Shown: positions 1,402-21,035 of the stretch, piece by piece
Layout: the number at the start of each line of letters is the position of its first letter
Numbering within the stretch: the first letter of the stretch is position 1
IMG/VR virus record: IMGVR_UViG_3300043427_000876
Span: 1 to 21,293 of that record
Length of the DNA stretch: 21,293 bases
Reading direction: 5' to 3' (one strand)
Source of the DNA: a virus
Made by a program: the position numbers and the translations under genes
The notes under the pieces: generated by a model
The model's database searches: none
Told to the model about the DNA's origin: nothing
The model's input: the letters and a program-made list of their open reading frames with translations, nothing else

Positions 1402-1411
1402 CTATAAATAG
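1402..1411 (-). promoter_or_regulatory. Late-promoter-like motif before the fibre gene starting at 1378
   Basis: The coding strand reads CTATTTATAG; the plus strand reads CTATAAATAG. The site lies in a 36 bp gap, with 24 nt between motif and start codon, and is one of a recurrent set. Promoter function is inferred from position only, and the orientation relative to T4 late promoters is reversed. Confidence 0.35.
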
Positions 1412-1414
1412 AGT

Positions 1415-4400
1415 TTAGCGTTCTTCTAAATCAGTTATGCGTGACCGCAAGTGGTCATTATCCATTTTGAGTTCTTTGATTGCTTCAATAAGGAGTGCGG
1501 TGATATTACCATACGCAACGGAGTACTGGTCCTTATCAGCCACATAACTAACCAACTCTGGTGCTATTTCAAGAATTTCTTGTGCAATTACACCAACTTT
1601 ACGGGTCTTGTCTTGGTCATCAATCATATTGTAATAGACCCCACGCATATCAACGACCTTTTGAAGTGCATTACTAATGGTGATGATATTTTCTTTTGCT
1701 CTACGGTCAGAATATGCGATAACGTCTGCGGTTGCTCTAATGGTACCCGTGACATCTAATGCGTATGATGGTCGTGTCGTTGTTCCAATACCAACCGATG
1801 CTTTGAATATCTTTTCACCAGGTTGACTGACCTTCGTGACCTTCCATCCAGAAATGATACACGTACCACTATTGGAATAATTGAATAATGCTTGTGGTGT
1901 CCAATACTTTGTACCACTTGCAAATTGTCCAGTACTAGACCCAAATCCCTTGATATATCCAGATACTTTTGTCCATGACGTACCCGGATTAGCATTTAAC
2001 ATGACCCAATATCCGAATGACCCTGGATTACCACCTAAACTAGAGAACGATTCGTTATAATCAATCGACCCCATATAGTGTTGGTTGTTTGTACCCGTGG
2101 TATTTCTAATCCAACATTCCATATAGAAGGTATCATCTTGGTCTACTGGAATGTATGGGAATCCACTATTATAAACCCCACCAACGGGAATATAACCTGC
2201 AATTTGGATTGCGTATCCACCTGGTGAAGTAGAATCTGCTGTCCACGTAACACTAGTACTTCCAAAAAATTCTTGAAGTTCAGCTTGAGTCCATGTGGGG
2301 TCAATTTCAAATACCACATCGCCTGGAGTATAGTGTCCTACTGGATAATTTTGAGAATCGGATACTCGGCTATTACTTCGTAGAATTCCACCACGAACGT
2401 CTAAAGCTGCTTGTGGACTTGACGTTCCAATACCGACATTACCTGCTGCAGTGAGTTTCATGCGGTCAGCTCCGGCCCCCGCATTCCATGTGCTAAATAT
2501 TATATCTCCAGTGTCATTTCCCCCCGCTCGTACACCGGCGATTTGTGCAATACGTTTATCAGTACCACTTCTATTCAAATTATTGAAAGCCACTGCACCA
2601 CCATGACCATCAGTAGTAGAACTAGTACCCAAATCTAACCATGCACTAAAGGAAGAATTATGCACTGATAAGAATGTTCCACCATTAGTATTAAACGCCG
2701 GACTTGTAGTGCCGATGCCGACGTTGCCGCCAGTCGTGACAATAAACTTTTCTGTCGTAGAACCGTTGGTATAAATACGAACGTTGTAGCCCGTTTCAGC
2801 GGCAACACATAAATCATTTGTGGTATCACCAAACCATGACCCCTTGTTAAGCAAATAGCCAATGGCGGAACCTTGTTTGCGAACGGCGAACGCACCACCG
2901 CCAGTTGTTGTGGAGTTATCACAAGCAATTGTTCCATAGTTTCCGGAAGCCTTTGCAACAAGTAACGCATTAGGTGAAGTTGTTCCAATACCGACGTTAT
3001 TGCTAGAATTTACAAACACTCCCGTTCCAGAAGCTCCACCCCGCAAAAGCACACCTTTTGACGCCACGGATCCGAGAACTGTACCCCCTTCACCGTTACC
3101 GAGGTCGCTTGAGTATGTTAGAAGCCCTTGCGTGGACATAAAAACCGTATCTCGAAACGTTGTTGTTCCGTTTACATCAAGTTTCGTACCCGGACTCGTC
3201 GTGCCGATGCCGACGTTGCCGCCATTTAAGTATGAGTTGCCACTAGTGTGCAAAAATACCTTGGTATCCAAACTGCTGTCAAGTATTCCGAAATAAGTGT
3301 TTGACCCTTCCAAAAAGGCGCAGTATTTATCGTTGTTTGCGAAGTGAATCGTGCCGTTGCTTCTTAACACTTGGTAAGTGTTTGCTGAATACCCAGGAAG
3401 GTTGCCAGATAGTTCAAGCCATCCACCACCAGACAGACCCGTGATACGCATCGCGCCTTGATACACATCGAGCTTGACCGACGGACTCGTCGTGCCGATA
3501 CCGACATTACCCTTAACAATTAAATCATTTCGGCCGGGATCTGCATATGAATAAGTGTCTGAGACTAGAAGTCCGCCAACTTTCAATCCACTTGCAGCAC
3601 CAGAATTAAGTAACTGTAGATATCGGTGGGTCGAGTTTGTCCCAATTCGGAACGATACATTACCCGTTTCTGTGGTTCCAAATCGTATGTCGGAAGAATT
3701 TACATCCAATGCGTATTCAGGATTCGTTGTACCGATACCGATGTTACTTCCGGTGGTTACTGTGATTATGTCATTTGTACCTAACGAAGAATATCTAGAT
3801 AACTTAAACGCATTTCCATTGGAAGTATCAATCCCCATAGCCCAATCAGCCGCACCATTAAAGTATATATATTGGTCCGTGGCCCCGTTATTACCCAATC
3901 TAAAAACTGTATCTGCTGATGTTGTAGATACGTGTAGTTTTGCGGTTGGATTTGTCGTACCGATGCCAACGTTACCGCCATTCAATATTGTCATCAACGT
4001 TGCAGCATTTGACGAGTTATTAAATGTAGTAGATGTTGAACCACCTTGTATCGTTAGATTTCCTGCTCCTTGGTCACCACGAATATACCCTTGGTCGTTC
4101 GCACTAAAATATGATGTAGCTTTAGATATGCCAGTGACGTTTAATGTTGTTCCATCAAACGTAAGATTCGCTTCACCTTGTAATGTATTCGTAGTTCCTG
4201 TAGCGGTGACTACATAGTTGTTCGTATTAGCGTTAATGGTGACAGATGCTGATGTACCCGATGACCCCGAACTACCAGATGTACCTGAGCTACCACTGTT
4301 TCCTGATGTGCCGTTTGCTCCACTGGTGCCAGAAGTACCGGTTGTTCCAGATGTGCCACTCGTTCCGGCAGGAGTTAATGCGAAGGCGGCATAAGACGAA

Positions 4401-4495
4401 CTAACCGCAAAACTCGCGGTACCAAAATACCCCACTCCACTCGCTAGTGAACTGGTATAAGATGAGCCCGAAACTGTCGTGGTAAAAATTGCCAT
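1415..4495 (-). CDS. Long tail fibre with GIGT ladder and C-terminal S74 intramolecular chaperone
   Basis: 1026 residues. An N-terminal VGYFGTASFA segment (about 21-43) leads into 13 Gly-X-Y triplets (44-82). Eight [NS][VI]GIGTxxP motifs follow near residues 175, 251, 330, 427, 500, 591, 686 and 900, most followed by a LDV-type strand. Between the seventh and eighth lies a compact region (about 710-895) rich in Trp, Tyr and Gly that looks like a carbohydrate-binding jelly-roll; that fold is inferred. The C-terminus (928-1026) is a peptidase S74 domain: the YSDRRAKENI start has the Ser-Asp-x-Arg-x-Lys signature, and the end is a helical TALLIEAIKELK segment. Family knowledge: this domain trimerises fibres, then cleaves itself off before the Ser, here Ser929. 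The ATG at 4495 has a GAGGAG ribosome site inside the last codons of the upstream gene, which ends 1 bp before, so translation is probably coupled. Confidence 0.9.
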   Translation of the reverse strand: MAIFTTTVSGSSYTSSLASGVGYFGTASFAVSSSYAAFALTPAGTSGTSGTTGTSGTSGANGTSGNSGSSGTSGSSGSSGTSASVTINANTNNYVVTATGTTNTLQGEANLTFDGTTLNVTGISKATSYFSANDQGYIRGDQGAGNLTIQGGSTSTTFNNSSNAATLMTILNGGNVGIGTTNPTAKLHVSTTSADTVFRLGNNGATDQYIYFNGAADWAMGIDTSNGNAFKLSRYSSLGTNDIITVTTGSNIGIGTTNPEYALDVNSSDIRFGTTETGNVSFRIGTNSTHRYLQLLNSGAASGLKVGGLLVSDTYSYADPGRNDLIVKGNVGIGTTSPSVKLDVYQGAMRITGLSGGGWLELSGNLPGYSANTYQVLRSNGTIHFANNDKYCAFLEGSNTYFGILDSSLDTKVFLHTSGNSYLNGGNVGIGTTSPGTKLDVNGTTTFRDTVFMSTQGLLTYSSDLGNGEGGTVLGSVASKGVLLRGGASGTGVFVNSSNNVGIGTTSPNALLVAKASGNYGTIACDNSTTTGGGAFAVRKQGSAIGYLLNKGSWFGDTTNDLCVAAETGYNVRIYTNGSTTEKFIVTTGGNVGIGTTSPAFNTNGGTFLSVHNSSFSAWLDLGTSSTTDGHGGAVAFNNLNRSGTDKRIAQIAGVRAGGNDTGDIIFSTWNAGAGADRMKLTAAGNVGIGTSSPQAALDVRGGILRSNSRVSDSQNYPVGHYTPGDVVFEIDPTWTQAELQEFFGSTSVTWTADSTSPGGYAIQIAGYIPVGGVYNSGFPYIPVDQDDTFYMECWIRNTTGTNNQHYMGSIDYNESFSSLGGNPGSFGYWVMLNANPGTSWTKVSGYIKGFGSSTGQFASGTKYWTPQALFNYSNSGTCIISGWKVTKVSQPGEKIFKASVGIGTTTRPSYALDVTGTIRATADVIAYSDRRAKENIITISNALQKVVDMRGVYYNMIDDQDKTRKVGVIAQEILEIAPELVSYVADKDQYSVAYGNITALLIEAIKELKMDNDHLRSRITDLEER
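1418..1711 (-). other. Peptidase S74 (intramolecular chaperone of endosialidase) domain
   Basis: Codons for residues 929-1026 of the fibre. Ser929 begins the SDRRAK motif, and GVIAQEILEIAPELV and SVAYGNITALLIEAIKEL match the conserved blocks of the family. The predicted released chaperone fragment is about 98 residues. Cleavage itself is inferred from the family, not shown. Confidence 0.88.
4192..4342 (-). repeat. Direct repeat of 1-151 in the neighbouring fibre gene
   Basis: Positions 4192-4342 align without gaps to 1-151 (constant offset 4191). Over the collagen part, 4258-4340 against 67-149, only six mismatches were counted. Both encode GAN-GTS-GNS-GSS-type triplets followed by SASVTI and a YVVTATGT strand. 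The copies lie in adjacent paralogous genes in the same orientation. Confidence 0.85.
4250..4366 (-). repeat. Collagen-like Gly-X-Y repeat, 13 triplets
   Basis: Thirteen Gly-X-Y triplets at residues 44-82 of the S74 fibre, again proline-free and dominated by GTS and GSS. This is about half the length of the blocks in the downstream gene. Confidence 0.9.
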
Positions 4496-4496
4496 A

Positions 4497-6719
4497 CTAG
4501 GTTATCTCCTCAAGGGTAAATCTGAATTTCTTCCCCGATTTGTTATTAATAATATATAAATATTCTTCCCCTTCTTGGATGGTCCAGTTCCCCGTGGTAC
4601 CATCTACGGTGTTACCAGATGACCCCTCGTTGGAGAGATTTAAGTCACCCGTATAGAGATTTGCCCATCGCTTAGACGTTGACCCTAAATCATACAAATT
4701 ATCAGAACTTGGGAAGATATTACCTGCAACATCTAATTTTGCTGCTGGGCTTGATGTACCTATACCAACATTAACGTTATCATCATATATTACTGATGAT
4801 GTTACGTGTTCTAATCCTGCGGATTTTAATAATCTGTTTTGTGTAAGAAGGATTTCACTACCAACATTATTAAACGTTGGTGGCCCCATTAATACCACCG
4901 ATGAGGTGACTCCACCGGTAGTATTTTGATGAACAAATATCCAATGGTCATTTACTGAGTCAAATAAGAGCGAGCCACTGCGTTGTGGCGACGAGCCAGA
5001 ATCGATAACTGCCAATCCACCTAATGTTAATCCTGGGGTGTTTGTATTAACCGTAATGATATTTGTTCCAACGTTCAATGTACTTTGTGATAAGTACTGA
5101 ATAGAGGACGACCCCAGTACAATGAAGTTTTGTGTAACTGTAAGTGACCCCGATGTTACTTGGTCGCCAATGTATATATTTGACCCCGTAGTAGCGAGTG
5201 CACCAATGCCCGTGGTGTTCTGTACTACAACCTGTGATGATTGTGAAATTAGGGTAGGCTTATTACTGATTGTTGCAAAGTCTACTTGGGTAGAACTTGA
5301 TACTGTACCTGTGGGTAAAAATGCTGTAACTTGAGCGGATGATGATATCGTATTTGGTGGAAGTAATTCTGCGACTTGTGCTGCACCAGATACAATTCCC
5401 GAAGGAATATTACTAAGTGATGGATATGATACTTGCGATGAAGCAGATACTAATGTTGGTTTATTTACCACATTTGTATAGTCTACCAACGAAGCAGTTA
5501 ATGCATTCCGTGCCCAACTACTGGTGCCGAAGAATGACCCCGTAAAAGCACCCGAGATAGGTAAATTGTCTCCAGATTGATTAACAACCGTAAAGTTTCC
5601 ACCGTTATCCTTAAGTTGTAATGTACCTAAATAAATGGTGGACCCACTAACGTAGAGCGAACGCCACTTTTTATCTGGAGAGCCCAAGTCATAAATGTCT
5701 GTCGTCGATGGGACGATATGTCCACTAGCGGTAATCGTACTTGGTGTAATGACCGCCCCACTAATTGCGGTTAGTACTTGGGCGGAACTACTGTATACTC
5801 CGTCGAGGTCTAAGTATGTATTAATTTGAGCGGAACTACTGATGACTCCAGATGGTAATCCCGAAGGTAATACATATGACGCGGTAGTTGCGGTTCCGAT
5901 GAATGACCCACTAAATGTACCAACCGACCCAGAGCTAACGGAAATCAACGATTGAATTAAAATAATAGACTGCGACGCTGGTGCTTGTGTAAATTGTATA
6001 TTTGACGCTGACACCGTAAAATCATTATCATTAATATAACGCAAACCCCCTACGGTTACTAATAATGATTTTGGATTATATGATGAAGATAATGCATAAT
6101 TTTGTGTTATACCATCACCGACATATAAATGATTATCTATTGCGAGATTTGTTTGTAAATCAGTAAGCCCACTACCATTTCCAATAAATGACCCCGTAAA
6201 ACTACTACTAATTCCAGTCCCAACACTTAATGGAACCCGAATATAAATGTTTGACTCTGATGGTGGAGCTTCAACGAAATTTACTTCTTTTGTACTACTG
6301 GTAAATGTATAGTCAATATTTGGGGCGTAAGTAATACCACCAACCGAAATTAATAAACCTTCTGCATTATAATATGATTGAGAAAGTACATATGTTTTGG
6401 TCGTACCATCCCCATCAAAGTTATATGATTCGACTGCAACCGATGTTTTAAGATTTGTAAGTTGACTACCATCACCCTTAAAATACGAAGCAGTCACCGC
6501 CTGGGTTACATTAAGTGACCCGGTGATGACTGCGTTACCTGTGTATGGGAAAGCTCCTGCACCTCCTGCTGCGTTTAATGCATAGGAAGCGGTTAACGCA
6601 TAAGAGGAACTAACGGCGTTACTTGCGGTACCATAGAAGTTATACGCTGTAACCGAGCCAGAAATATTTGCACTGCCAGAGACTATCAGTCCTTTTCTGG
6701 CTACGAATTCATTTGCCAT
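4497..6719 (-). CDS. Tail fibre or appendage protein, MANEF-type N-terminus
   Basis: 740 residues. It begins MANEFVARKGLIV, shared with the next gene upstream, and continues with a YALTASYAL six-residue repeat and a GDGSQLTNL motif. Residues about 90-290 contain two tandem related modules, each opening with a DGxTxxYxLSxSY strand and containing a VGG[IL]xY turn, and each ending in SFTGSF or TFSGSF. A stretch with seven SSSxQV-like motifs lies near 290-510. Residues about 524-638 are the module also found in the partial fibre at the left edge. One NVGIGTSSP motif and a DNLYDLGSTSKRW segment precede the C-terminus, which ends in a GNWTIQEGEE and IINNKSGKKFRF strand pair. Family knowledge: these segments are common in marine T4-like phage structural proteins of unknown exact role. 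An AAGGGG ribosome site precedes the ATG. Confidence 0.85.
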   Translation of the reverse strand: MANEFVARKGLIVSGSANISGSVTAYNFYGTASNAVSSSYALTASYALNAAGGAGAFPYTGNAVITGSLNVTQAVTASYFKGDGSQLTNLKTSVAVESYNFDGDGTTKTYVLSQSYYNAEGLLISVGGITYAPNIDYTFTSSTKEVNFVEAPPSESNIYIRVPLSVGTGISSSFTGSFIGNGSGLTDLQTNLAIDNHLYVGDGITQNYALSSSYNPKSLLVTVGGLRYINDNDFTVSASNIQFTQAPASQSIILIQSLISVSSGSVGTFSGSFIGTATTASYVLPSGLPSGVISSSAQINTYLDLDGVYSSSAQVLTAISGAVITPSTITASGHIVPSTTDIYDLGSPDKKWRSLYVSGSTIYLGTLQLKDNGGNFTVVNQSGDNLPISGAFTGSFFGTSSWARNALTASLVDYTNVVNKPTLVSASSQVSYPSLSNIPSGIVSGAAQVAELLPPNTISSSAQVTAFLPTGTVSSSTQVDFATISNKPTLISQSSQVVVQNTTGIGALATTGSNIYIGDQVTSGSLTVTQNFIVLGSSSIQYLSQSTLNVGTNIITVNTNTPGLTLGGLAVIDSGSSPQRSGSLLFDSVNDHWIFVHQNTTGGVTSSVVLMGPPTFNNVGSEILLTQNRLLKSAGLEHVTSSVIYDDNVNVGIGTSSPAAKLDVAGNIFPSSDNLYDLGSTSKRWANLYTGDLNLSNEGSSGNTVDGTTGNWTIQEGEEYLYIINNKSGKKFRFTLEEIT
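4555..4562 (-). promoter_or_regulatory. TATAAATA-type motif inside the end of the 4497-6719 gene
   Basis: The coding strand reads ATATTTATATATT, encoding Tyr-Leu-Tyr-Ile-Ile near the C-terminus. It lies 59 nt before the ATG at 4495, further than the other copies, and is constrained by coding, so it may be coincidental. Confidence 0.2.
4808..5151 (-). repeat. Duplicated fibre module, copy of 430-773
   Basis: Positions 4808-5151 align to 430-773 at a constant offset of 4378, checked at both ends and in the middle, so no net indel is present. The encoded protein is nearly the same (LGSSSIQYLSQSTLNVGTN, then DSGSSPQRSGSLLFDSVND). Differences seen are mostly at third codon positions. A more diverged relative lies in the gene at 6782-8614 (SSQYVVGVSRIILNDDD). 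Confidence 0.85.
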
Positions 6720-6781
6720 AGTTCCCCTTCTTCATTATCCAAAGGTGATGTGTTTAAGTTGTACGAAACCTACTACTATAA

Positions 6782-8614
6782 TTAGAGAGCGCGAACTGCT
6801 ACCTTAATAATCCAGTTATCTGAAGCGACAGTTGCTTTTAATCGTGCGGTGTTTGATAAGAGGTCTACAGAAAATACTACGTCTGTAGTATTGCCTAAGT
6901 CATTTGTAGAGAAATCAGTAAATTCAGTAGTGCCTAGTGCCACATTCCATACTGCCATTACAGTTCCTGCACGATAATCATTGGATTTCTTAATGACATA
7001 ATCAAAGAAGACTGCATCATATGTTGTTGCAGAAATTGTTGCGACAACTTCAGTACCAGTGTCTACATCGGTATTACTACCCGATGTGAAGAGAACACCG
7101 TGAATGATAGCCCCACCTTGTAAATTAACTTGGTCAGGTGTTGATGCGTTTTCTGAGGTAATATTTTGTAAACCGAACGAGTATGCTGACCCAAGATTGA
7201 GCGGAACACTATTGAAAGTGATTGGCTTGGCTGCTACGTCACCATTCGTTACTGTAAAGTTTGAACCAGTGAATGATGCGACACCGATACTTGATGTGGT
7301 TGCGTTACTACCACTAATGGTGATAGTTTGACCACTGACCGTTGCGGTAAGTCCATTTGTACCATCAATAGTAAGTGCTTGTGTCTTAAGAGATACAGTA
7401 CCGGTACCGCCATCCGACCCCGTGATATTAAGATTGGTGACAATTCCAGTAAGATTACTACCATCACCAGAGAATGCCGATGCGGTGACGGAGCCCGTTA
7501 CATATTGACTACTTTCTACGTGGAATACTCCACCATCAATACGAAGTGGGGTAAGTAACGGATTGGTATCAATGTTATGGTCACCAGATGCGACTGGAAT
7601 ACGACCGGTTGTCAATCCAACTTCATCACCCAATGAACCAGTGTTTTTTGGACCTGCGATAAAATATGCACTTTCGTATGTAGAACCACTTATTGTATCA
7701 TATATGAAGTGGTGATTTAGACTATCCCAGAGGATAGATGCGGTTGTAAATGATGAACCAGAATCTTCAATTGAAATACCCGCAAATCGTACAATGTCGT
7801 CGTCATTAAGAATAATACGACTTACACCAACCACATATTGTGATGATGTAACATATTGGGTAGACATAGATATTGCGGTCAATAGACCGATAACATTCAA
7901 ACTACCAGAAATGTTTACATCTTTTGCAATTCCAACACCACCGTCTACAACTAACGCACCATTTGAAAAAGTTGTACTGTTGGTAGTATTACTGATGGTT
8001 TGGACGCCAGTAAAGGTATTTGAACCCGTGGTTGCTAAGGTTGAGTAATTAGTAGTTTGGGTAACGTCAACTTGTACTGAACTACTGATTACTGATTCTG
8101 CATTTAACTTACGCTTAACTCCATCAGTAAAGTGTACTGAAGAAGTATCGAGTGTTAATGTACGAGTAGTGGTAATATCACCACCGCCACTCAAACCACT
8201 TCCTGCGGTAATATTTACCGTACTGTGGTCGATGTGTTGATCTGCTACATAATTTGTTGTAGCATTGTGGTCAACTTGTGATGAAGCGGAAATCGTACCT
8301 GCTGGAATACCAATCGTAACAGTATTGTCAGTAACAACTGTGGTAACCCCGTTTGACCCTAATAAGCTTAAGGAATCGGTAAGAAGGCTTATGGTATCAC
8401 TACCAGTAGACCCACTAATACGAAGGTCAGTAACAAGCCCCGTAAGTTGTGACCCATCACCTTTGAATGAGCCAGTAAACGAACCAGTTGCTCCCGCCGA
8501 TGCGGTAACTGGTCCATAAAATATACTATCACTGGATACGCTGAACGACCCAGTTATCTTTGCACCGTTATTAAGGACTATCAGGCCTTTACGGGCAATA
8601 AATTCATTTGCCAT
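6782..8614 (-). CDS. Tail fibre or appendage protein, MANEF-type N-terminus
   Basis: 610 residues, starting MANEFIARKGLIV like its neighbour. The N-terminal third has SFTGSFKGDGSQLTGL and a GLSGGGDITTTRTLTLD strand, a pattern seen in trimeric fibre shafts. SASSQV and SSSVQV motifs occur near 110-180. The middle (about 255-350) is a diverged copy of the SSSIQYLSQS module of the neighbours. A second GDGSNLTGI motif follows. The last 95 or so residues are related to the C-terminus of the gene at 8662-9261, sharing an AGTVMAVWN strand and a TDFSTNDLGNTTDV turn with the MIMATWS and TDVSTADIGDTKDI of that protein. No enzyme motif is visible. The ATG follows a TTGGGAGAAATGT leader with a good ribosome site. 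A virion appendage role is inferred from context. Confidence 0.83.
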   Translation of the reverse strand: MANEFIARKGLIVLNNGAKITGSFSVSSDSIFYGPVTASAGATGSFTGSFKGDGSQLTGLVTDLRISGSTGSDTISLLTDSLSLLGSNGVTTVVTDNTVTIGIPAGTISASSQVDHNATTNYVADQHIDHSTVNITAGSGLSGGGDITTTRTLTLDTSSVHFTDGVKRKLNAESVISSSVQVDVTQTTNYSTLATTGSNTFTGVQTISNTTNSTTFSNGALVVDGGVGIAKDVNISGSLNVIGLLTAISMSTQYVTSSQYVVGVSRIILNDDDIVRFAGISIEDSGSSFTTASILWDSLNHHFIYDTISGSTYESAYFIAGPKNTGSLGDEVGLTTGRIPVASGDHNIDTNPLLTPLRIDGGVFHVESSQYVTGSVTASAFSGDGSNLTGIVTNLNITGSDGGTGTVSLKTQALTIDGTNGLTATVSGQTITISGSNATTSSIGVASFTGSNFTVTNGDVAAKPITFNSVPLNLGSAYSFGLQNITSENASTPDQVNLQGGAIIHGVLFTSGSNTDVDTGTEVVATISATTYDAVFFDYVIKKSNDYRAGTVMAVWNVALGTTEFTDFSTNDLGNTTDVVFSVDLLSNTARLKATVASDNWIIKVAVRAL

Positions 8615-8640
8615 ACATTTCTCCCAACGGGGTTATCAGT

Positions 8641-8650
8641 ATATAAATAT
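8641..8650 (-). promoter_or_regulatory. Late-promoter-like motif before the gene starting at 8614
   Basis: The coding strand reads ATATTTATAT, with TATAAATA on the plus strand at 8642-8649. It sits in a 47 bp gap, 27 nt before the start codon. It belongs to the recurrent set; its activity is inferred. Confidence 0.35.
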
Positions 8651-8661
8651 TAAATACTTTT

Positions 8662-9261: not shown

Positions 9262-9263
9262 CT

Positions 9264-10118: not shown

Positions 10119-10119
10119 A

Positions 10120-11961
10120 TTAAACTAAACTCGCACTACGATATTGAGTTCCAGTATACACATAAATAAACGAACCACTAAAGTACATCGACCCAGTTTG
10201 TGGAGTAGTCGGTGCAGCTGTTGGTAGTATAAAATTCGTTGCTTGTAACGACCCCGTAACTGCGACACTACCACTAGTATACATTGACCCACTAAATATT
10301 AATGTATCAGCATTTGTGAGTAATGACCCCGTAATTGTTTGGTTGCCATTAAACGTATTTGATGCAGTGGTAGCAAATCCAAACGCACTAACTTGAGTTG
10401 AACTAGATACGGTTCCCGTTGGAATTGATGCGTTTGACGCAAAACTTGCGGTCAATGCAAAACTAGATGTTACTGCTCGACTTGCACTTGTTGCAAAAGA
10501 TGCAGATGTTGCTATCGATGATGTTACTGTAAAGCTTGACGTTGTTGCTAGTGCAGAGTTTAATGCAAAACTTGAAGTCGTAGCTCTACTTGCCGATGTA
10601 GCAAATGACGAAGATATTGTGAAGCTAGATGTAGTACTAAGTGATGCGGTTGCAACGGTCCATGTAGTTGCTTGTACAGAACTAGAGACTAATCCAGCTG
10701 GTTTATTGGTAATAGAATCCCAATCACTTGCACCACCTCCGCCACCATTCATTGCGTACGAAGCGGTAAGTGCATAACTTGCACTCACCACATATGACAA
10801 TCCACCCGATGGGGTAGGAATGATGATACTACTACCCGTTTCATATTCGCCCGCAAAGATAACATCGATACCATCTGCTACACTTGCGGTACCGTATAAT
10901 GACCCCGTAAATTCTGTTGCTATTACTGGAACGTTTACTTGTAATGATGCCGTATTTAATTCGAGTGTTTCAACGTTATCGGTTACCCACACCCATGTAT
11001 TATCAATTCCATCATAATATTGACGAATATTTGATTGGCCATCGGATACAACGATAAAATTACTACCGGTACGGAAGTCGTATCCACCTTGATTACCATT
11101 AAATGTACCAACGAATACATTATAACTACCGCTGATATATCGTGCTGCTTCTGTACCTATCGCAATATTGCTGTCACCACGTGAATATTCAAGTGTTCTC
11201 TTACCTATAGCAACATTATTACTACCGCTTTCATTTCGTAAAAGTGCGAACGCACCGAGTGCGGTATTATAATTTCCCGATATATTGTAGAACATCGATG
11301 CTGCGCCGATGGCGACATTTTGTGTACTATTAATATCCCGAGTTAATGCGAAAGAACCGATAGCAATATTACTACTTCCACTGTAACTGGAACTAAGTGC
11401 ATTATATCCGATAGCGGTATTATCAAACCCAATTGTATTTGATGCTAATGCTTCGTGACCAAGCGCAGTATTATATACACCAGTTGTTAAATTGGAAAGT
11501 GCATTATTACCGAATACAAGATTAAATCCTTCACTAATGGACCCATTTGGACCAGCACCGATTCTGACCCCACGAACATAAATGTCTGACCCAACAACGG
11601 TTAATGATGGGCCTTGGATTGAGCTGGTAATGAGCAGCGACCCTGTAATAACTGCGGAACCACTGTATGGGAATCCACCCTTTTCAGCTACTAATGCGTA
11701 TGATGCGGTAAGCGCATATGAGGATGATACAGCATTTGCAGATGAACTTACATAAGATGCTGTATACGCTAATAATGCAACGTCAGCAAAACGTTGATAT
11801 GACCCCGTGCGCATTGGAACTACTGACGCAGGAGTTACATTAACATTATAGTCTGAGTCTTTTTCAACTTTTACAATTATATTCGGTACGTCTAACGTAA
11901 GATTTTCATCTTCAGCTTCCCGAATGATAACCCGTATATTGGGAAATCCCGAAATCGTCAT
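10120..11961 (-). CDS. Fibre or adhesin protein with YadA-head-like and six-residue repeats
   Basis: 613 residues from the ATG at 11961; a TTG codon directly before it (11964) touches the upstream stop and is less likely as the start. Residues 1-60 form a compact, non-repetitive head (NIRVIIREAEDENLTLDVPN) that may attach to the baseplate. A YALTASYAL repeat and an AVITGSLLITSS strand follow. Residues about 147-286 are nine repeats of about 17 residues with NxAIGxxAL cores, the pattern of the YadA head beta-roll. Residues 447-512 are eleven six-residue units. SSSVQ and SSSTQV motifs flank that array. The end is a beta-rich region (PQTGSMYFSGSFIYVYTGTQY) typical of phage fibre C-termini. The gene abuts the stop of the gene at 11965. 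Adhesion is inferred from the resemblance to trimeric autotransporter heads. Confidence 0.85.
   Translation of the reverse strand: MTISGFPNIRVIIREAEDENLTLDVPNIIVKVEKDSDYNVNVTPASVVPMRTGSYQRFADVALLAYTASYVSSSANAVSSSYALTASYALVAEKGGFPYSGSAVITGSLLITSSIQGPSLTVVGSDIYVRGVRIGAGPNGSISEGFNLVFGNNALSNLTTGVYNTALGHEALASNTIGFDNTAIGYNALSSSYSGSSNIAIGSFALTRDINSTQNVAIGAASMFYNISGNYNTALGAFALLRNESGSNNVAIGKRTLEYSRGDSNIAIGTEAARYISGSYNVFVGTFNGNQGGYDFRTGSNFIVVSDGQSNIRQYYDGIDNTWVWVTDNVETLELNTASLQVNVPVIATEFTGSLYGTASVADGIDVIFAGEYETGSSIIIPTPSGGLSYVVSASYALTASYAMNGGGGGASDWDSITNKPAGLVSSSVQATTWTVATASLSTTSSFTISSSFATSASRATTSSFALNSALATTSSFTVTSSIATSASFATSASRAVTSSFALTASFASNASIPTGTVSSSTQVSAFGFATTASNTFNGNQTITGSLLTNADTLIFSGSMYTSGSVAVTGSLQATNFILPTAAPTTPQTGSMYFSGSFIYVYTGTQYRSASLV
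10426..10623 (-). repeat. Eleven-copy six-residue repeat
   Basis: Residues 447-512 divide exactly into 11 hexapeptides of the form [FIRL]-[AT]-x-[ST]-x-[SA], for example FATSAS, RATTSS, FALNSA and IATSAS. The large residue recurs every sixth position with no break. The DNA unit is 18 bp but degenerate. Single copies of the same unit (YALTAS) occur in most neighbouring fibre genes. Confidence 0.85.
11104..11523 (-). repeat. YadA-head-like NxAIGxxA repeat array, nine copies
   Basis: Residues about 147-286 contain nine units of 16-17 residues with cores such as NTALGHEAL, NTAIGYNAL, NIAIGSFAL, NVAIGAASM, NTALGAFAL, NVAIGKRTL, NIAIGTEAA and NVFVGTFNG. In trimeric autotransporters of the YadA type, AIGxxA-like units build a left-handed beta-roll. 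A trimeric roll here is inferred from the pattern. Confidence 0.82.
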
Positions 11962-11964
11962 CAA

Positions 11965-12303
11965 TTATCTCGTAGCAGTAGGACGAACTACAAAATACCC
12001 TTCAAGAATACGACGAGTGACAGAACCACTGGTCATATTAATGTCGTATACATATTTTCTTTGTGTAAGAGAAAGTGTTTGTGTTGGAGTTAATTCAATG
12101 GTAATACTACCCGATACATTGGGAGCAAGCTTGGTAACATTGATAGTTGCCGCTACCTCATCGGTGGTAAAATTTTCTCTGACTTGACCACTAAATGTAT
12201 ATTCCGTGGTATCTAAGTATCCACCCGTATCAGCATTTTCTAATGTTGCTAATACTTTGAAAGTTTCCCCTTGTCCAATATTAAATTCAGTAATTTCTGC
12301 CAT
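11965..12303 (-). CDS. Small beta-sandwich virion protein, BppU N-terminal-like
   Basis: 112 residues, starting MAEITEFNIGQGETF. The pattern of strands (SGQVRENFTT, then SGSITIELTPTQTLSL, then KYVYDINMTSGSVTRRILEGYFVV) resembles the N-terminal domain of phage baseplate upper proteins and related immunoglobulin-like virion domains: a Gly-x-T/S-F opening, a QVR strand, an LTxxQT turn and a YDI strand before the closing VxPxxT end. It is the first gene after the tube terminator and directly precedes the large adhesin gene, so it may be an adaptor joining a fibre to the baseplate. Family assignment is by pattern only. A GAGAGAAACT ribosome site precedes the ATG. Confidence 0.7.
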   Translation of the reverse strand: MAEITEFNIGQGETFKVLATLENADTGGYLDTTEYTFSGQVRENFTTDEVAATINVTKLAPNVSGSITIELTPTQTLSLTQRKYVYDINMTSGSVTRRILEGYFVVRPTATR

Positions 12304-12330
12304 AGTTTCTCTCGGAAAAAATACACCTTA

Positions 12331-12340
12331 TTATAAGTAT
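12331..12340 (-). promoter_or_regulatory. Late-promoter-like motif opening the appendage operon
   Basis: The coding strand reads ATACTTATAA followed by TAAGG; it also contains TATAAT. It lies between the tube terminator and the ATG at 12303, with 28 nt of spacing. As the first site after a terminator, it is the most plausible promoter for the appendage genes. Confidence 0.4.
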
Positions 12341-12371
12341 CACAAACTATTGGTATATAGTAATTTCCAAT

Positions 12372-12399
12372 AAAAAACCCCACCTTTTGAGTGGGGTTT
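12372..12399 (-). terminator. Rho-independent terminator after the tail tube gene
   Basis: The coding strand has AAACCCCAC, a 7 nt loop, GTGGGGTTT, giving a perfect 9 bp stem (12375-12383 with 12391-12399), and the run continues as TTTTTT. It lies 19 bp after the tube stop codon and separates the tail operon from the appendage genes. Confidence 0.92.
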
Positions 12400-12418
12400 C
12401 TTGTTCTGCTTGAGTCTC

Positions 12419-12907
12419 TTAGTAGTTGAGGATGCAGTAGTCTGGTTGGATGGTGAGTGAAATACTCATTGGGTCATCCTTTTCCCAAGCCATTTCACCG
12501 AATTCTACCTTGGTGATTTGTGCGCCCTTCAAAATCCATTCTTCAACCTTATCACCTACTGGACCAAGAACGTTGATTACGATGTCCTTCTTGTAGAATT
12601 CTGCGTAACCGTCACGACCTGTGACTGATTCGTGATGTAAACGAACCCATTCCATTACTGCTTGTGCGCCAGATGGAACTACTGGGTCGTATAAGTCGAG
12701 TACCATTTCGTCCCATACAGTCTTTCCCTTGACATAGCGTTGAAGATTAATATGGTCTAAACGCTTCTTTTCTTGGGTTAACTTTGGACGGTCTGCCTTC
12801 TTGATAAGATAAGCAGGTACGCCTTCGATATACATCACATACCGATTTTGAGTCTTTGGTTCAAATGCGGTGAAAAATAGTTCTTGTTCGTTGACCAAAT
12901 TTGCCAT
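12419..12907 (-). CDS. 19: Tail tube protein (T4 gp19-like)
   Basis: 162 residues, close to the 163 of T4 gp19. The protein begins MANLVNEQELFFTAFEPKTQNRY, with the FEPKxxNRF/Y-type start and a following VPAYLIKKADRP segment common in gp19-like tubes. It continues with a WDEMVLDLYDPVVPSGAQAVMEWVRLHHE block and ends with EFGEMAWEKDDPMSISLTIQPDY, the conserved C-terminal strand of the family. It forms stacked hexameric rings around the DNA channel inside the contractile sheath. The gene follows the sheath gene after 58 bp, has its own promoter-like motif and a GGAGAG ribosome site, and is followed by a strong terminator, as expected for a highly expressed product. Confidence 0.92.
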   Translation of the reverse strand: MANLVNEQELFFTAFEPKTQNRYVMYIEGVPAYLIKKADRPKLTQEKKRLDHINLQRYVKGKTVWDEMVLDLYDPVVPSGAQAVMEWVRLHHESVTGRDGYAEFYKKDIVINVLGPVGDKVEEWILKGAQITKVEFGEMAWEKDDPMSISLTIQPDYCILNY

Positions 12908-12937
12908 ATGGCTCTCCAGAAATAGAGTAGTACTTTA

Positions 12938-12946
12938 AATAAATAG
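12938..12946 (-). promoter_or_regulatory. Late-promoter-like motif before the tube gene
   Basis: The coding strand reads CTATTTATTTAAAGTAC, of which 12 bases (TATTTAAAGTAC) recur before the scaffold gene near 21059-21070. It lies 30 nt before the ATG at 12907. Confidence 0.4.
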
Positions 12947-12965
12947 TGGTTATTGAAAAAACTGA

Positions 12966-15266
12966 TTAGATGGTATCGAAGGTTGCACCAGTTGGGAGAA
13001 TGTTGAAATCCAACTTGATGAATTCTGCGGTACGGGTTGGTTGGAGATAGATTGCACCAACCAAGATATTGCGGTCAATAATATCTGGAGTGTTGTTAGT
13101 TTCGTCCATAACCACACGGAATGCGGTCAAACCAGAACGTTGTTGGATACCTGCGAGGTATGGATTGACAATGTTCAAGAAACGATTACGTGTTGCTTCG
13201 GTATTTTGTTCGAAAACAAGGTAACGTGCTGAACTTGCGATGAACTTCTTGACAGTGATGAGAAGACGACGAACGTTTACACGGTCAAGTGCTGATGAAC
13301 GGCGTTGTAAGGTCTTTTGTCCCCATACACAGATACCTTGTCCTGGGAATTGTGCGATTGGGTTGACCTTTGATTCGTACAATTCATCACGTTGTGCTTG
13401 ATTTAAGCGAGTCTTGACACCGACTGCACCTGGAATTCCACCACGATTCAAGCCTGCTGGTGCAAACCATTCTGCACCAACATTATCACTATATGCGTAG
13501 ACTTCTGGAAGTACGACTGATGGTGGTGCCCAGAGGAACTTGTTAGTGTTGGTATCTACGACACGAACCCAAGGATAGTAGGATGCTGCGTAATTGGTAT
13601 CTAATGATTCTGCTAAACCGGTAACACTACTGATGGTTGCATCAAGAGTTGATAAGTCGAGGAGGTAGAAGCAATCTCCACGGGTTTCACAAAGGTCAAT
13701 TGCTGATTGAGCGATATAACTGTGTTGTGAGTAGAGAACGCCTGGAACCACCAAGAGGTTAAGGTCTACACTATCTGGATTACTTAATGTATTAAGTGCT
13801 CTCTTAAATTCAACGGAACCAGATGCGGTAGCGTTTGAAAGATTAAATCCTTGTGTATTAGTTGAAGTAATTGCTCCACCCAATGCGATATATCGTGCTG
13901 GGTTTAATCCATCGAATCCACTTTGGAAAGGAACAGTGAATCGACGATAAGATACTTGGTCACGGTTAGTAAGTGTAAGAGGACTACCAGCAACTTCAGT
14001 TGATGAAAGTGAACTACTGAGGTTAAATTCAGAGCCAACTGCTAATCCACCAACGGTTGGTGCAAGAAGTGATAAGTTGGTGGTCTTTGAGAAATCATAT
14101 CCGTAGTATGCACGGGTGTCGATAGCATTTACATTGTATCCAAAAGTACTACCACTTAACCAACGACTGGTTACATACGAACCACTAGTGACTTGACCAG
14201 CGGTGGTACTGAATACTGAAGTTAGTGCGGCGAATCCATAAGGTACTGCATTTTCTGGAATGACACTATCACTCATTTCTACACGGATATACTTTGAAGT
14301 GTTTGGATAATCACCTTCGTAGTATGTTTCACCTGTTGCTGAATTATATGTTGGAACTGCATTACCGATACGGCGTGCAATATAATTTGGACTGTCTGGG
14401 TCAAGGTTCAAGTTGTCATAACTTTCAAGAACGTTTGTTGATGTATCAGTATCATTGAAGTCACGAACAAGTAATGAGAATGAACCAAAGTTACTATCTG
14501 GGTCAAGACTTGGTGAAATACCAGTGATAGAAATTTTGATTTCCTTATTTGCTGCAGTTCCATCACTTAATGTGTGAACCTTGAATAAGTCAGTAGCTGC
14601 CCCTGCGATTGGTTGTGAACGAATCCAAGGAGTAGTTGCATTATCGTATTGAGTATTAAGTGTGAGTGATGCGGTAACTGCACTAAGAGTTACTGTATCA
14701 CCAGCTTGTGTGAGTGCATCTGGGAAGATAGCGTAGACATATGCTGGATATGATGAGTCACTTTGTGCATTAGTACCGAAGTATGTACCGATAAATGAAG
14801 TACTACCTTCGATTGCACTTAAGTTACTTGCTGATGTGTGTACACTGGTTGAACTACTGAGTAGCAAGTTAAAGCTTGCGGTAGTACCACCAATTGCTAC
14901 ACTAGTAAGACTACTTCCCGATACAGTTGGGTGTAACACTGCGAACAACTTACTACCAGCTGAACCAGTAGCGAAAATAGTTGCCGCGGTCGTGGTGTAT
15001 CCGCCTAATCCAAGAACACGAACAATGGTTGCACTTCCTGCTTCTTGAAGGTAGTTCTTAACTGCATAACTCATGTAAGAAGTACCGTTTGGTTCGCCGA
15101 AAGTCGTGACGAACCCATCGATACCATCTACCGAAGTAGGAATAAATGCTGGTCCTTTAGTGGTTGGACCAACAAACGCCGCACCAATTTGTGCTACTCC
15201 TTGTGCGAGGAATGATTGGTCGCGTTCTTGTGTAAAGACACCAGGCGACACGATTCTTTCTGCCAT
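12966..15266 (-). CDS. 18: Contractile tail sheath protein (T4 gp18-like)
   Basis: 766 residues, longer than T4 gp18 (659). The N-terminus MAERIVSPGVFTQERDQSF and the AAFVGPTTKGPAF segment are the classic sheath start. Residues about 30-120 and the C-terminal third (about 560-766) are conserved: LWAPPSVVLP, NRGGIPGAVGVKTRLNQAQR, PGQGICVWGQKTL, NVRRLLITVKKFI and the closing FIKLDFNILPTG. The middle (about 120-500) is Ser/Thr-rich and variable, and probably holds the outward domains. Hexamers stack around the tube and contract at infection. The gene lies 25 bp after the small coiled-coil gene and has a GGAGAATA ribosome site. Codons look smoother (many AAC and AAG) than in the fibre genes, which fits high expression. 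Confidence 0.95.
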   Translation of the reverse strand: MAERIVSPGVFTQERDQSFLAQGVAQIGAAFVGPTTKGPAFIPTSVDGIDGFVTTFGEPNGTSYMSYAVKNYLQEAGSATIVRVLGLGGYTTTAATIFATGSAGSKLFAVLHPTVSGSSLTSVAIGGTTASFNLLLSSSTSVHTSASNLSAIEGSTSFIGTYFGTNAQSDSSYPAYVYAIFPDALTQAGDTVTLSAVTASLTLNTQYDNATTPWIRSQPIAGAATDLFKVHTLSDGTAANKEIKISITGISPSLDPDSNFGSFSLLVRDFNDTDTSTNVLESYDNLNLDPDSPNYIARRIGNAVPTYNSATGETYYEGDYPNTSKYIRVEMSDSVIPENAVPYGFAALTSVFSTTAGQVTSGSYVTSRWLSGSTFGYNVNAIDTRAYYGYDFSKTTNLSLLAPTVGGLAVGSEFNLSSSLSSTEVAGSPLTLTNRDQVSYRRFTVPFQSGFDGLNPARYIALGGAITSTNTQGFNLSNATASGSVEFKRALNTLSNPDSVDLNLLVVPGVLYSQHSYIAQSAIDLCETRGDCFYLLDLSTLDATISSVTGLAESLDTNYAASYYPWVRVVDTNTNKFLWAPPSVVLPEVYAYSDNVGAEWFAPAGLNRGGIPGAVGVKTRLNQAQRDELYESKVNPIAQFPGQGICVWGQKTLQRRSSALDRVNVRRLLITVKKFIASSARYLVFEQNTEATRNRFLNIVNPYLAGIQQRSGLTAFRVVMDETNNTPDIIDRNILVGAIYLQPTRTAEFIKLDFNILPTGATFDTI

Positions 15267-15291
15267 ACGGTATTCTCCAAACTAAATTTGT

Positions 15292-15558
15292 TTATCTCTC
15301 TGGGGTGAATTCGCCGGTTTCAAAATTAATTGACCCGACGCCATATTTTTCAGATAACCTATTGATTAAATCTTGTTCTTCTACAAGTAAACTTTTAAAT
15401 AGTTTGGCTTGTTCACCAATCTTTGATTTTAGTTCTGCGACATCCAGTTCCAACATCTCAACTTGGAGTTGGAACTGACCTGTATCGGAGACTACCGTTG
15501 CTAATTTGTCACGCAGTCCGTTAATCTCATTCAATTCATCTTTGGTAATTTCTGCCAT
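15292..15558 (-). CDS. Small coiled-coil protein between tail terminator and sheath
   Basis: 88 residues from the ATG at 15558. A longer reading from 15579 adds seven residues, but 15558 is preferred because a GAGG ribosome site lies 5 nt before it and because the product then starts MAEIT like its neighbours. Residues about 10-70 are strongly helical with heptad-like leucines (MLELDVAELKSKIGEQ and LVEEQDLINRLSEKYG), and the end is INFETGEFTPER. No known enzyme motif is present. Its place between gp15-like and gp18-like genes suggests a tail assembly or virion role; this is inference. The family was not recognised. Confidence 0.7.
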   Translation of the reverse strand: MAEITKDELNEINGLRDKLATVVSDTGQFQLQVEMLELDVAELKSKIGEQAKLFKSLLVEEQDLINRLSEKYGVGSINFETGEFTPER

Positions 15559-15590
15559 AATAACCTCTTTTGTGTACATTACAACTCGTA

Positions 15591-15600
15591 TTATAAATAT
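15591..15600 (-). promoter_or_regulatory. Late-promoter-like motif before the coiled-coil, sheath and tube genes
   Basis: The coding strand reads ATATTTATAATACG, with TATAAATA on the plus strand at 15592-15599 and a TATAAT hexamer on the coding strand. It lies 33 nt before the ATG at 15558. Confidence 0.4.
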
Positions 15601-15623
15601 CTGTTTTTTTACCTAAACATCAA

Positions 15624-16406
15624 TTATTCACTTTCTATTTCGGTGAAAGTTACCACTTTTTTAACAGAATATCGTTTCTTTGTGGTACTACTTCTATTGT
15701 TCTGTTTATTTAACATATTCTCAGGTAACAAGTATGCGTAAATGGTCATATCAAATTGAGTACGCACCACACGGTCCTCTGAGGTGGGTAATTCAGTCAA
15801 CGGTTCAAATGACTTTACCGAAGTACGGAATTTATAGTTATTTTGTTCACCCCAATATTGGTCTGTTTCGAAAGAAATGTTTTCTACCACCGCATTCATT
15901 TGTTCCATATATTCAGTCCAAATAATGCATCGGTAATTTATTTCATAATAGTCAGGTACCGTGGTAACTATATACTCTCGACTTGGGGTGATATTATTTT
16001 TGACGGCAAATTGGTCATACGGTGTACGACGATTCCACCCCGTTTCAAATGTCCGTTCTAAATACTTGTTAACAGGAGAATTAATCATAGACTTCTTCAT
16101 CCCTGTTCGACGAATCATAATCATTGGAAGTTGAATCTTTCCGATAGAATCACGCATAACACCATCACGTTGCGCAGACTTCCAGCGTTCTGGGTCACCA
16201 TAAATGACCGGTACTTTTACTTCATTTCCATTTTGTGTTACAATAGGTTTAATACGAGTATTCATGTAACTTAAAATCGCATTATCAATTGTAAAAAGGG
16301 TAACTGCGATAGGTGGTGTGTTACCTAATGGGATATCATTTGCTCGATTTTCTACAGCCTTTTGTTGTTGTACATCAACACGTTGTACTATTGGCTTTTC
16401 GCTCAT
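15624..16406 (-). CDS. 15: Tail terminator / sheath stabiliser (T4 gp15-like)
   Basis: 260 residues against 272 in T4 gp15. The segment EVKVPVIYGDPERWKSAQRDG (about 63-83) matches the family's VPxxYxxxExxx start, followed by IGKIQLPMIMIRR. The central PDYYEINYRCIIWTEYMEQM (about 172-191) matches the conserved YELxIxTxYxxxMxxxVE block of gp15. In T4, gp15 hexamers cap the finished tail and join it to the neck. The start overlaps the stop of the upstream neck gene by 4 bp (ATGA), showing translational coupling, which fits the head-tail junction role. The C-terminus is basic (RSSTTKKRYSVKK). Confidence 0.82.
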   Translation of the reverse strand: MSEKPIVQRVDVQQQKAVENRANDIPLGNTPPIAVTLFTIDNAILSYMNTRIKPIVTQNGNEVKVPVIYGDPERWKSAQRDGVMRDSIGKIQLPMIMIRRTGMKKSMINSPVNKYLERTFETGWNRRTPYDQFAVKNNITPSREYIVTTVPDYYEINYRCIIWTEYMEQMNAVVENISFETDQYWGEQNNYKFRTSVKSFEPLTELPTSEDRVVRTQFDMTIYAYLLPENMLNKQNNRSSTTKKRYSVKKVVTFTEIESE

Positions 16407-16861
16407 ACTTGTGCCTCTTCGATATCAATACTTGTACGGCGAGTTAAGTGTGCCATACAAATGATTGCGGTATTAAACCCTGGCTTACCTGCGATGAGTT
16501 GTGTTTCTGTAATATTATGAATTTCGTAGAAATGATTGTTATATCCGATTACGTCACCAATTTCTGGATAGGTGTTAACCTCTTGTAACATACGACGAGC
16601 AAATCTAAATTCAGTTTGTTGGTCTTGATTGACACCGAATCCTTCTTCTTGTACTGGTGTATTTTTGTTGTATTTGACAATCGCATTAACTACAACAGGT
16701 GTATATCGTGGCTTAGTGACGCTTTCACCATAGATATTCACTTTAGCAGATTCAACTACAATCTTGTAAAGAACAACCGCAACATCCATTGTTTCATCAA
16801 TCAATTCCCGAGTGATGTGTTGGATGAATTCAAAATCACGTTGTGTGACGAAGCGTGCCAT
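16403..16861 (-). CDS. 14: Neck / head-closure protein (T4 gp14-like)
   Basis: 152 residues, shorter than T4 gp14 (256). Visible features are a VNIYGESVTKPRYTPV segment (about 57-72), EFRFARRMLQE (about 103-113) and YPEIGDVIGYNNHFYEIHNI (about 118-137), with the GDxIxYNxxxYEI pattern of small head-closure or neck proteins. The gene lies between the gp13-like and gp15-like genes, the same relative order as in T4, and this context carries much of the weight. The gap to the upstream gene is 3 bp and the overlap with the next is 4 bp. A different head-closure family of similar size is the main alternative. Confidence 0.62.
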   Translation of the reverse strand: MARFVTQRDFEFIQHITRELIDETMDVAVVLYKIVVESAKVNIYGESVTKPRYTPVVVNAIVKYNKNTPVQEEGFGVNQDQQTEFRFARRMLQEVNTYPEIGDVIGYNNHFYEIHNITETQLIAGKPGFNTAIICMAHLTRRTSIDIEEAQV

Positions 16862-16864
16862 TGA

Positions 16865-18019
16865 TTAACCTATGTAAATGAGAGTAGGAATATTCTTGAA
16901 CATTTCTTGCATGTTCTTAGAATTTTCCGCTTGCTTTTTCATTTGTGCTTGCATTCCAGTTTCTTCGAGTGTTTCACGAAGTTCTTTAATTAACATTTCT
17001 TTTTCAGTGACTGCTTCGCGGCGAAGTAATTCACCATCCAAACGAATTTGTCCATCTGGGTATGGAATGTTTTCGAACTTTGAACGAATAATACCTAATA
17101 ATTCTTTTGCTAGTGCAAGCGTATATTTGAATATCCACGTGCGGGACATATCATTTGTATTTGCGTACGTTATATGGGTATATGGCACATTCGAGAGGTC
17201 ACCTGCGACATTAGACCCCGATTGGAATATATTTGCTTGTTTATCGTTTACTACCATATAATCAAAGTATATTACTTTACTTTCTCTGAAGATTGGTTGG
17301 AATCGTACCACGTTATTTGCGATTTCAAATCCATATTGACTCTTACGAATCATATCATTGACTTCAATTGCTTGAATACGGAGAAGGTCTTCGTAAGCTG
17401 GCATCATCACGAATGTAACTGGTGGTGAATATCCATCGAATCCGAATTCACTCATCAAATTCGTTAAACCAAGACCCGTGGTTGCAAATGGGTCATAGTA
17501 ACGTGCGATTGCTGGTGGCATATAGTGATACAAACGACGAATTTCAATAGCTGACCCACTTTCATATGGGTCTGCCCACAGTGCCTTCAAATCATATGAT
17601 TGAGTATATGCGGATGCAGAAATCCATCCTCTCTTTACATTCACATTACCACCAGATTGAGCTTCCGTACCATAATCAGATGCCAACTTAACCAATTGTG
17701 GTAGTGCTGACCCAACGATGTTTCTTTGTGTTGCCGATGTCGCTGTACTTACTCCTTGAAGCGACATCATATGTTCACGTGCATTGAATTGATTAACTTG
17801 ATTACCGTAGGTGGTAATAGCTTCTTCAAAACATGCATAGATTTGCTTATCTATCAATTCAACTTCTACGACAGGGTATCCCAATTTTCTTGCAACGAAT
17901 TCCGCAGCACGTGGAGCATCTGCTTGAAACGCCACATCATTGTCAAAAAATCCAAATGGGGTTATACCTAATGGATTTGTAGGACTTCCATCGTAAAAAA
18001 TTGGTTCTTGTGTTTCCAT
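16865..18019 (-). CDS. 13: Neck / head-tail adaptor protein (T4 gp13-like)
   Basis: 384 residues against 309 in T4 gp13. The N-terminus has FGFFDNDVAFQADAPRAAEF and ARKLGYPVVEVELIDKQIY (about 22-62), followed by a helix with EEAITTYGNQVNQFN. Helical and strand segments include MPAYEDLLRIQAIEVND, and RTWIFKYTLALAKELLGIIR near 295-314, a well-conserved helix in neck proteins of distant T4 relatives. The last 65 residues are a charged coiled coil (EKEMLIKELRETLEE). It is first in a tightly coupled set with the gp14- and gp15-like genes, and immediately follows the capsid terminator. The assignment rests on remembered relatives and gene order rather than on a clear signature. Confidence 0.62.
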   Translation of the reverse strand: METQEPIFYDGSPTNPLGITPFGFFDNDVAFQADAPRAAEFVARKLGYPVVEVELIDKQIYACFEEAITTYGNQVNQFNAREHMMSLQGVSTATSATQRNIVGSALPQLVKLASDYGTEAQSGGNVNVKRGWISASAYTQSYDLKALWADPYESGSAIEIRRLYHYMPPAIARYYDPFATTGLGLTNLMSEFGFDGYSPPVTFVMMPAYEDLLRIQAIEVNDMIRKSQYGFEIANNVVRFQPIFRESKVIYFDYMVVNDKQANIFQSGSNVAGDLSNVPYTHITYANTNDMSRTWIFKYTLALAKELLGIIRSKFENIPYPDGQIRLDGELLRREAVTEKEMLIKELRETLEETGMQAQMKKQAENSKNMQEMFKNIPTLIYIG

Positions 18020-18042
18020 AAAACTCTCTGTTTAAGGACTAC

Positions 18043-18052
18043 TAATAAATAG
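18043..18052 (-). promoter_or_regulatory. Late-promoter-like motif before the neck operon
   Basis: The coding strand reads ACTATTTATTAGTAG, lying between the capsid terminator and the ATG at 18019, with 24 nt to the start. The order terminator, motif, ribosome site (GAGAG), gene supports a new transcription unit. Confidence 0.4.
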
Positions 18053-18090: not shown

Positions 18091-18118
18091 AATAAAAAGG
18101 GTGACCTTTCGGCCACCC
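18091..18118 (-). terminator. Rho-independent terminator after the major capsid gene
   Basis: The coding strand has GGGTGGCC, a GAAA tetraloop, then GGTCACCC (8 bp stem with one G-T pair, 18099-18118), followed by TTTTTATTT. It lies 28 bp past the capsid stop codon. Confidence 0.9.
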
Positions 18119-20974: not shown

Positions 20975-20998
20975 AAAATTGCTCTCCTATAAGGATAG

Positions 20999-21017
20999 AA
21001 TGGCTATTCAAGCCATT
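20999..21017 (-). repeat. Hairpin in the leader of the scaffold gene
   Basis: A perfect 7 bp inverted repeat (AATGGCT / AGCCATT) with a 5 nt loop lies 25 nt before the scaffold ATG, just upstream of the AGGAG ribosome site. There is no T-run after it, so it is not a terminator; mRNA stability or processing is possible. Confidence 0.6.
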
Positions 21018-21035
21018 AACGAGTATACATACAAC

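Follow-up and report, generated by a model that had tools for sequence, protein, structure and literature searches.

Why does one short AT-rich word, TATTTAT, recur at a nearly fixed distance ahead of genes in a viral fragment with T4-type structural proteins? The stretch of DNA analyzed here (the window) is an IMG/VR virus fragment of 21.3 kb, in which the minus strand holds all substantial genes and T4-type family matches were obtained for the capsid, head-tail adaptor, tail sheath and tail tube. Judged by the capsid, its closest cultured relatives are Flavobacterium phage immuto (54%) and Microcystis phage Mel-JY01 (50%). The original prediction described the word as an inverted T4 late promoter word and offered three options: TATTTAT is the box of another late factor of sigma type, the sites fire antisense, or the resemblance is incidental to an AT-rich -10 region.

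Six gap sites had been claimed. Five of them carry TATTTAT exactly on the coding strand, and the sixth, at 12332, is a one-base variant, TACTTATA (Table 1); the closest relatives have the same variant form at this site and more distant orthologues the exact word. The original prediction also proposed a comparison of gaps with a shuffled control and a scan of both strands. In the gaps, five exact words were found against 0.33 expected from dinucleotide shuffles of these gaps (P=0.0002), and the reverse word did not occur there (0 cases). The scan of the whole window on both strands gave 9 words against 5.96 expected, which is not significant; only placement and orientation are. Among the further candidates, the one at 4555 contains the exact word (4556-4562), but it is genic, lies 60 nt from a start and is unproven. 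The weak candidate at 6771-6788 lacks the exact word and is not supported. The candidate at 21059 coincides in part with the 5' arm of a terminator-like hairpin (21061-21042), is kept in 2 of 62 scaffold orthologues and was rejected as a box, as it belongs to the terminator flank. The motif is indeed missing from tightly coupled junctions and does follow two terminator-like hairpins, near 18118-18099 and 12375-12399. Our scan placed the latter hairpin on the plus strand, and reading of the letters revealed an inverted repeat followed by T on the minus strand too.

Table 1. Positions of putative late promoter boxes, genes and terminator-like hairpins in the window.
Feature	Position	Strand	Exact TATTTAT	Distance to start codon (start position)	Remarks
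Putative late promoter box CTATTTATA	1403..1411	-	1404-1410	25 nt (1378)	Ahead of ORF ending at 1378
Possible box ATATTTATA	4555..4563	-	4556-4562	60 nt	Within 3' end of ORF 4497-6719, ahead of ORF 1415-4495
Putative late promoter box ATATTTATA	8642..8650	-	8643-8649	28 nt (8614)	Ahead of ORF 6782-8614; 4/4 alignable orthologues
Putative variant box TACTTATA	12332..12339	-		28 nt	Ahead of ORF 11965-12303
Terminator-like hairpin	12375..12399	-			3' of tail tube gene, ahead of variant box 12332
Tail tube gene	12419..12907	-			T4-type family match
Putative late promoter box CTATTTATT	12938..12946	-	12939-12945	31 nt (12907)	Ahead of tail tube gene; 17/17 orthologues
Tail sheath gene	12966..15266	-			T4-type family match
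Putative late promoter box ATATTTATA	15592..15600	-	15593-15599	34 nt (15558)	16/19 orthologues
Head-tail adaptor Ad2 gene (T4 gp13-like)	16865..18019	-			T4-type family match
Putative late promoter box CTATTTATT	18044..18052	-	18045-18051	25 nt (18019)	Ahead of head-tail adaptor gene; 36/45 orthologues
Terminator-like hairpin	18099..18118	-			3' of capsid gene, ahead of box at 18044
Major capsid protein gene (gp23-like)	18147..19733	-			T4-type family match; tight junction, no box (0/68 orthologues)
Scaffold gene	19754-20974	-			

Two other features of the window were observed. At the end of the fragment, ORFs 1-1379 and 1415-4495 (minus strand) contain stretches that are repetitive, Gly-Thr-Ser-rich and collagen-like, as read from the sequence, and they probably encode tail fibre proteins. 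In addition, a 7-bp stem-loop at 20996-21020 (minus strand), about 20-45 nt ahead of the scaffold gene, occupies the place where a TATTTAT box is missing and recurs at the same place in relatives, with AATA invariant in the loop and stem sequences that vary among relatives. In the alignment, 88% of cells are paired versus 67% in shuffles, two-sided changes occur in 32 cells versus 13, and covariation is 0.62 versus 0.26, all for sequences that were selected on the basis of this stem, a choice that works in its favour. A search of Rfam gave no match at this position. The stem-loop is perhaps a 5' UTR element for translation, stability or processing of the scaffold-capsid operon.

We then analyzed 80 IMG/VR loci of relatives, retrieved via the capsid protein; gene calls came from a simple in-house routine, and no motif was preselected. 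The commonest 7-mer 15-65 nt ahead of genes was TATTTAT. In the close set, once similar regions had been removed (80% identity), it was present in 41 of 111 non-redundant gap regions (reverse complement, 1; TATAAAT, 2) and in 4 of 142 tight junctions (binomial 2e-11, Fisher 5e-13), and the other permutations of five T and two A averaged 6, that is, they were on average 7 times rarer. The more distant set gave 117 of 421 gap regions (reverse complement, 25; TATAAAT, 25) and 8 of 322 tight junctions; because relatives are non-independent samples, all these counts overstate the evidence somewhat. The box is kept ahead of orthologues of the tail tube gene (17/17), the small gene before the sheath (16/19) and the adaptor gene (36/45), and it is found ahead of 0 of 68 capsid, 2 of 62 scaffold and, for two tightly coupled genes, 0 of 17 and 2 of 53 orthologues. 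As the capsid and scaffold genes have no box, expression of the strongest late operon must be driven from a more distant upstream site or in some other way. Of 42 cases, 41 have the box oriented towards the gene that follows it. The distance of the box to the downstream start has a median of 30 nt (IQR 25-33), near that of T4, and is thus fixed as expected of a promoter for that gene; the distance to the end of the upstream gene is looser (IQR 20-64). Enrichment is weaker in immuto (8:1) and Mel-JY01 (11:5), and 50 kb of the huge phage LR756508 contain no excess of the box.

A logo built from 34 non-redundant sites has A (54%) or C (38%) before the box and often A after it, and 12 nt beyond the first base of the box there is a purine; upstream there are only weak positions and no conserved -35. 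The main tolerated variant is T-to-C at box position 3 (8 cases), and the consensus can be written as [AC]TA[TC]TTATA, placed 22-40 nt ahead of late genes. Start distances and the purine put this TATA-type box at the -10 position. Three long close relatives also have a second promoter class, CTTGACA, which is nearly exclusive of the box class and whose genes include DNA ligase, SSB, DNA polymerase and endonuclease. The box genes of recognisable function encode an Ig-domain structural protein, baseplate hub, tail tube and adaptor, so that among such genes, on the evidence of sequence, use of the box is limited to structural genes. The UvsX gene has CTTGAC plus a box close to its start. Other words were also observed ahead of genes in single relatives. 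In the immuto genome (L087, L089, L090), 7-mers of a second motif, TATATTTAGGTAT, occur in 12-19 of 108 regions ahead of genes and may represent a host-type Bacteroidota promoter, and in G018 (L118-L126) a second motif, GTATATTAGTA, precedes about 10 of 106 gap genes and is probably another promoter class.

The window fragment contains no sigma gene, and the link to a reader of the box is made via relatives (such as G002, 76% capsid identity). In immuto, gp118 (232 aa, annotated as hypothetical) gave a faint single-sequence gp55 match (phrog_234, E=0.008), and no other member of its family gave a significant one. The family, of about 250 aa and annotated as hypothetical, is present in five of seven long relatives (immuto, Mel-JY01, G002, G013 and G018); each of the five longest clade genomes in the analysis (146-190 kb) has a member. 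It also occurs in LR756508 and, as homologues, in 288 IMG/VR stretches. Comparison by hhalign with seven T4-type gp55 proteins gave a probability of 91 (E 1.1e-6, 102 columns), confined to sigma domain 2. The predicted model has a mean pLDDT of 71 (about 73-86 in domain 2), and almost all rows of its structure search were sigma factors. Its domain 2 superposes on T4 gp55 in a promoter complex (7d7c_F) with Z 10.2 and rmsd 2.8 A over 104 residues, although the aligner warns that middling Z values are common for helical folds. Searches of Pfam and PDB sequences with the family gave chance matches only. The kinship with gp55, as judged from these comparisons, is remote.

The gp55 plan consists of domain 2 and a short helix-loop-helix without domain 4, and the clade protein departs from it by a predicted second helical domain after domain 2 (pLDDT up to 97 when modelled alone), which T4 gp55 does not have. 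The best rows for this C-terminal domain in a second look were residues 530-611 (domain 4) of E. coli sigma-70, with Z 5.6-5.7 and 3.4-3.6 A, which is within the chance range. The closest members end in DPSMxFVY, which resembles the clamp-binding tail PSLDFLYE of T4, and such a tail is absent from immuto, Mel-JY01 and L211-L218. A sliding clamp of gp45 type was identified in G018 (phrog_223, E=1.2e-11), with homologues in G002, G013 and Mel-JY01 and none found in immuto. In the seven long relatives, no multisubunit RNA polymerase family was matched; a search for single-subunit RNA polymerase gave no match either, with its control silent too.

T4 gp55 has pockets for A-12 (Y97), A-9 (N13, H95) and A-8 (T99) (PMC7892883). 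Among 37 gp55-like members, Y97 is kept in all 37, T99 is replaced by S and H95 by F in all 37, and N13 is replaced by T in 34 (rarely N or S is found instead), the last position lying in a weakly conserved segment on whose alignment two methods agree. A-12 and A-8, the bases with kept contacts, are also retained by the box, and -9, where the pocket is altered, has changed, a match that is a correlation between two clades. Because cyanophage gp55 has F at position 95 yet keeps A-9, H95F alone cannot explain the change, and N13 or other residues must matter.

How, then, should the boxes be read? Taken together, we consider it very likely that they are late promoters recognised by a re-specified gp55-type sigma factor in a diverged T4-like branch, which is the first of the three options offered originally. 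The antisense option holds that the boxes are true T4-type late promoters firing into the upstream gene, and the plus strand does read TATAAATA, or a word one step away from it, at five sites of the window. In this sense the word is literally inverted: scored with the clade box matrix, forward and reverse hits are 13:0, 13:0 and 8:0 in G001-G003, 3:10 in T4 and 0:6 in a marine T4-like genome. The description is mechanistically misleading, since TATTTATA and the T4 word TATAAATA, read in the same direction, have six of eight bases in common and differ only at -10 and -9; the apparent inversion is a coincidence that arises because the word is near-palindromic. Strand bias, the fixed start distance, the persistence of the boxes in orthologues and their confinement to structural genes speak against both antisense firing and an incidental AT-rich -10 region. 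Against the antisense reading there are, moreover, the looser spacing to the upstream gene, the polarised [AC] before and purine after the box, and the opposite direction of the same word in true T4-type genomes. It was rejected on this polarity and is highly improbable.

Plain AT-richness was rejected by the composition-matched permutations and the shuffles. A more specific explanation, in which ordinary host sigma-70 promoters have the boxes as their -10 elements, AT-rich by necessity, draws on the -10-like position, on TATAAT-like extensions of some boxes, and on T-12 and A-11, which TATTTAT retains. However, position -7 would hold A instead of T, the logo has no -35, the permutations are far rarer than the box, and CTTGACA promoters form a separate class ahead of replication genes that hardly overlaps the boxes; a sigma-70 consensus scan at the boxes was at chance level (45 vs 52.6). 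We regard this explanation as unlikely. The -7 box of Bacteroidota hosts, TAnnTTTG, is out of register with the boxes of the window and was discarded. An equally unlikely explanation is that another phage factor (a different sigma, an activator or a phage RNA polymerase) reads the box and the gp55-like protein acts otherwise. It would agree with LR756508, which has the protein without the box, and with the distant relative RM378, whose different sigma (phrog_1740) implies that the lineage can swap factors. On the other side, the gp55-like protein is in all five of the longest genomes, no multisubunit polymerase was matched (the single-subunit search having no positive control), and no sigma-70 region 2 over the cut-off was found in the records searched other than RM378. 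Searches with phrog_234 (standard gp55), phrog_12791, phrog_1740 and phrog_1190 gave no clear match beyond RM378 and the weak one in immuto.

Under the preferred reading, that of a re-specified gp55-type sigma, the boxes would act as -10-like elements of late promoters, to which the diverged sigma would direct host RNA polymerase late in infection, with RNA starting at a purine about 5 nt past the box. Where a member has a T4-type clamp, this may assist through the C-terminal tail of the sigma. Relative to T4 TATAAATA (-13 to -6), the word retains A-12 and A-8 and has T in place of A at -10 and -9; the matching sigma retains Y97 for A-12 and T99, as S, for A-8, and its -9 pocket is altered (N13 to T, H95 to F). 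A bolder proposal, which we hold only tentatively, is that the split sigma of T4 is here a single protein, in which gp55 is joined to a domain-4-like module replacing gp33, in some members with a clamp-binding tail, and that the box went from TATAAATA to TATTTATA by drift, with the -9 pocket changing alongside. If so, the gp55 family would possess a second, natural specificity.

These results provide a putative consensus for the late promoters, and a candidate for the late sigma, of a large, mostly uncultured T4-like branch, which comprises metagenomic contigs and phages of Flavobacterium and Microcystis and in which the sigma gene is annotated as hypothetical. Operons and late genes may thereby be called from sequence. 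Moreover, a natural pair of gp55 specificities two bases apart would make it possible to test, by comparison, the structural account published for how the bases at -12, -9 and -8 are read (PMC7892883). In a literature search, with subscription journals outside it, no report of TATTTAT as a late promoter was found.

Among known systems, the T4 late promoter TATAAATA (gp55, gp33, gp45), whose box is numbered -13 to -6 (PMC2988020, PMC7892883), is alike in having an 8-bp AT box at -10 without a conserved -35, about 20-30 nt ahead of late structural genes; our routine, applied to the T4 late region as a control, recovered TATAAATA 14-28 nt ahead of genes. The gp55-type domain 2 is shared, and a T4-type clamp is present in four of the five gp55-bearing relatives. 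In contrast to T4, the window clade has TATTTATA, with T at -10 and -9 in place of the T4-type consensus, and its putative sigma carries an extra helical domain at the C-terminus and differs in the -9 pocket. Late promoters of the cyanophages S-PM2 and Syn9 are NATAAATA (PMC2984593); they also precede structural genes, and the gp55 homologue there has F at position 95, but A is retained at -10/-9 together with N13, whereas the window clade has T at both bases and T at the N13 position. A separate observation in the marine virus AG-345-O18 (L229), where TAATAAATA-type words stand ahead of genes and ATAAATA occurs 7 times forward and 0 times in reverse, is consistent with a cyanophage-type NATAAATA box. 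Rhodothermus phage RM378, a distant relative by capsid and sheath, has a weak bias for TTATTTAA ahead of genes, possibly a further late promoter variant. It differs in its clear sigma-70-like factor (phrog_1740, E 7.5e-34, at L096:28329-28928, minus strand, near the capsid gene), with which the gp55-like family showed no match in a profile comparison, and the clade gp55-like protein was not found in its genome. That a T4-like phage can have an altered late box has already been published for Aeromonas phage Aeh1, which has a/gC at -13/-12 (PMC2988020); Aeh1 alters -13/-12, and the window clade alters -10/-9. The system of the window is thus probably a variant of a known one, a T4-type late promoter with a changed word that would be read by a diverged gp55-type sigma factor.
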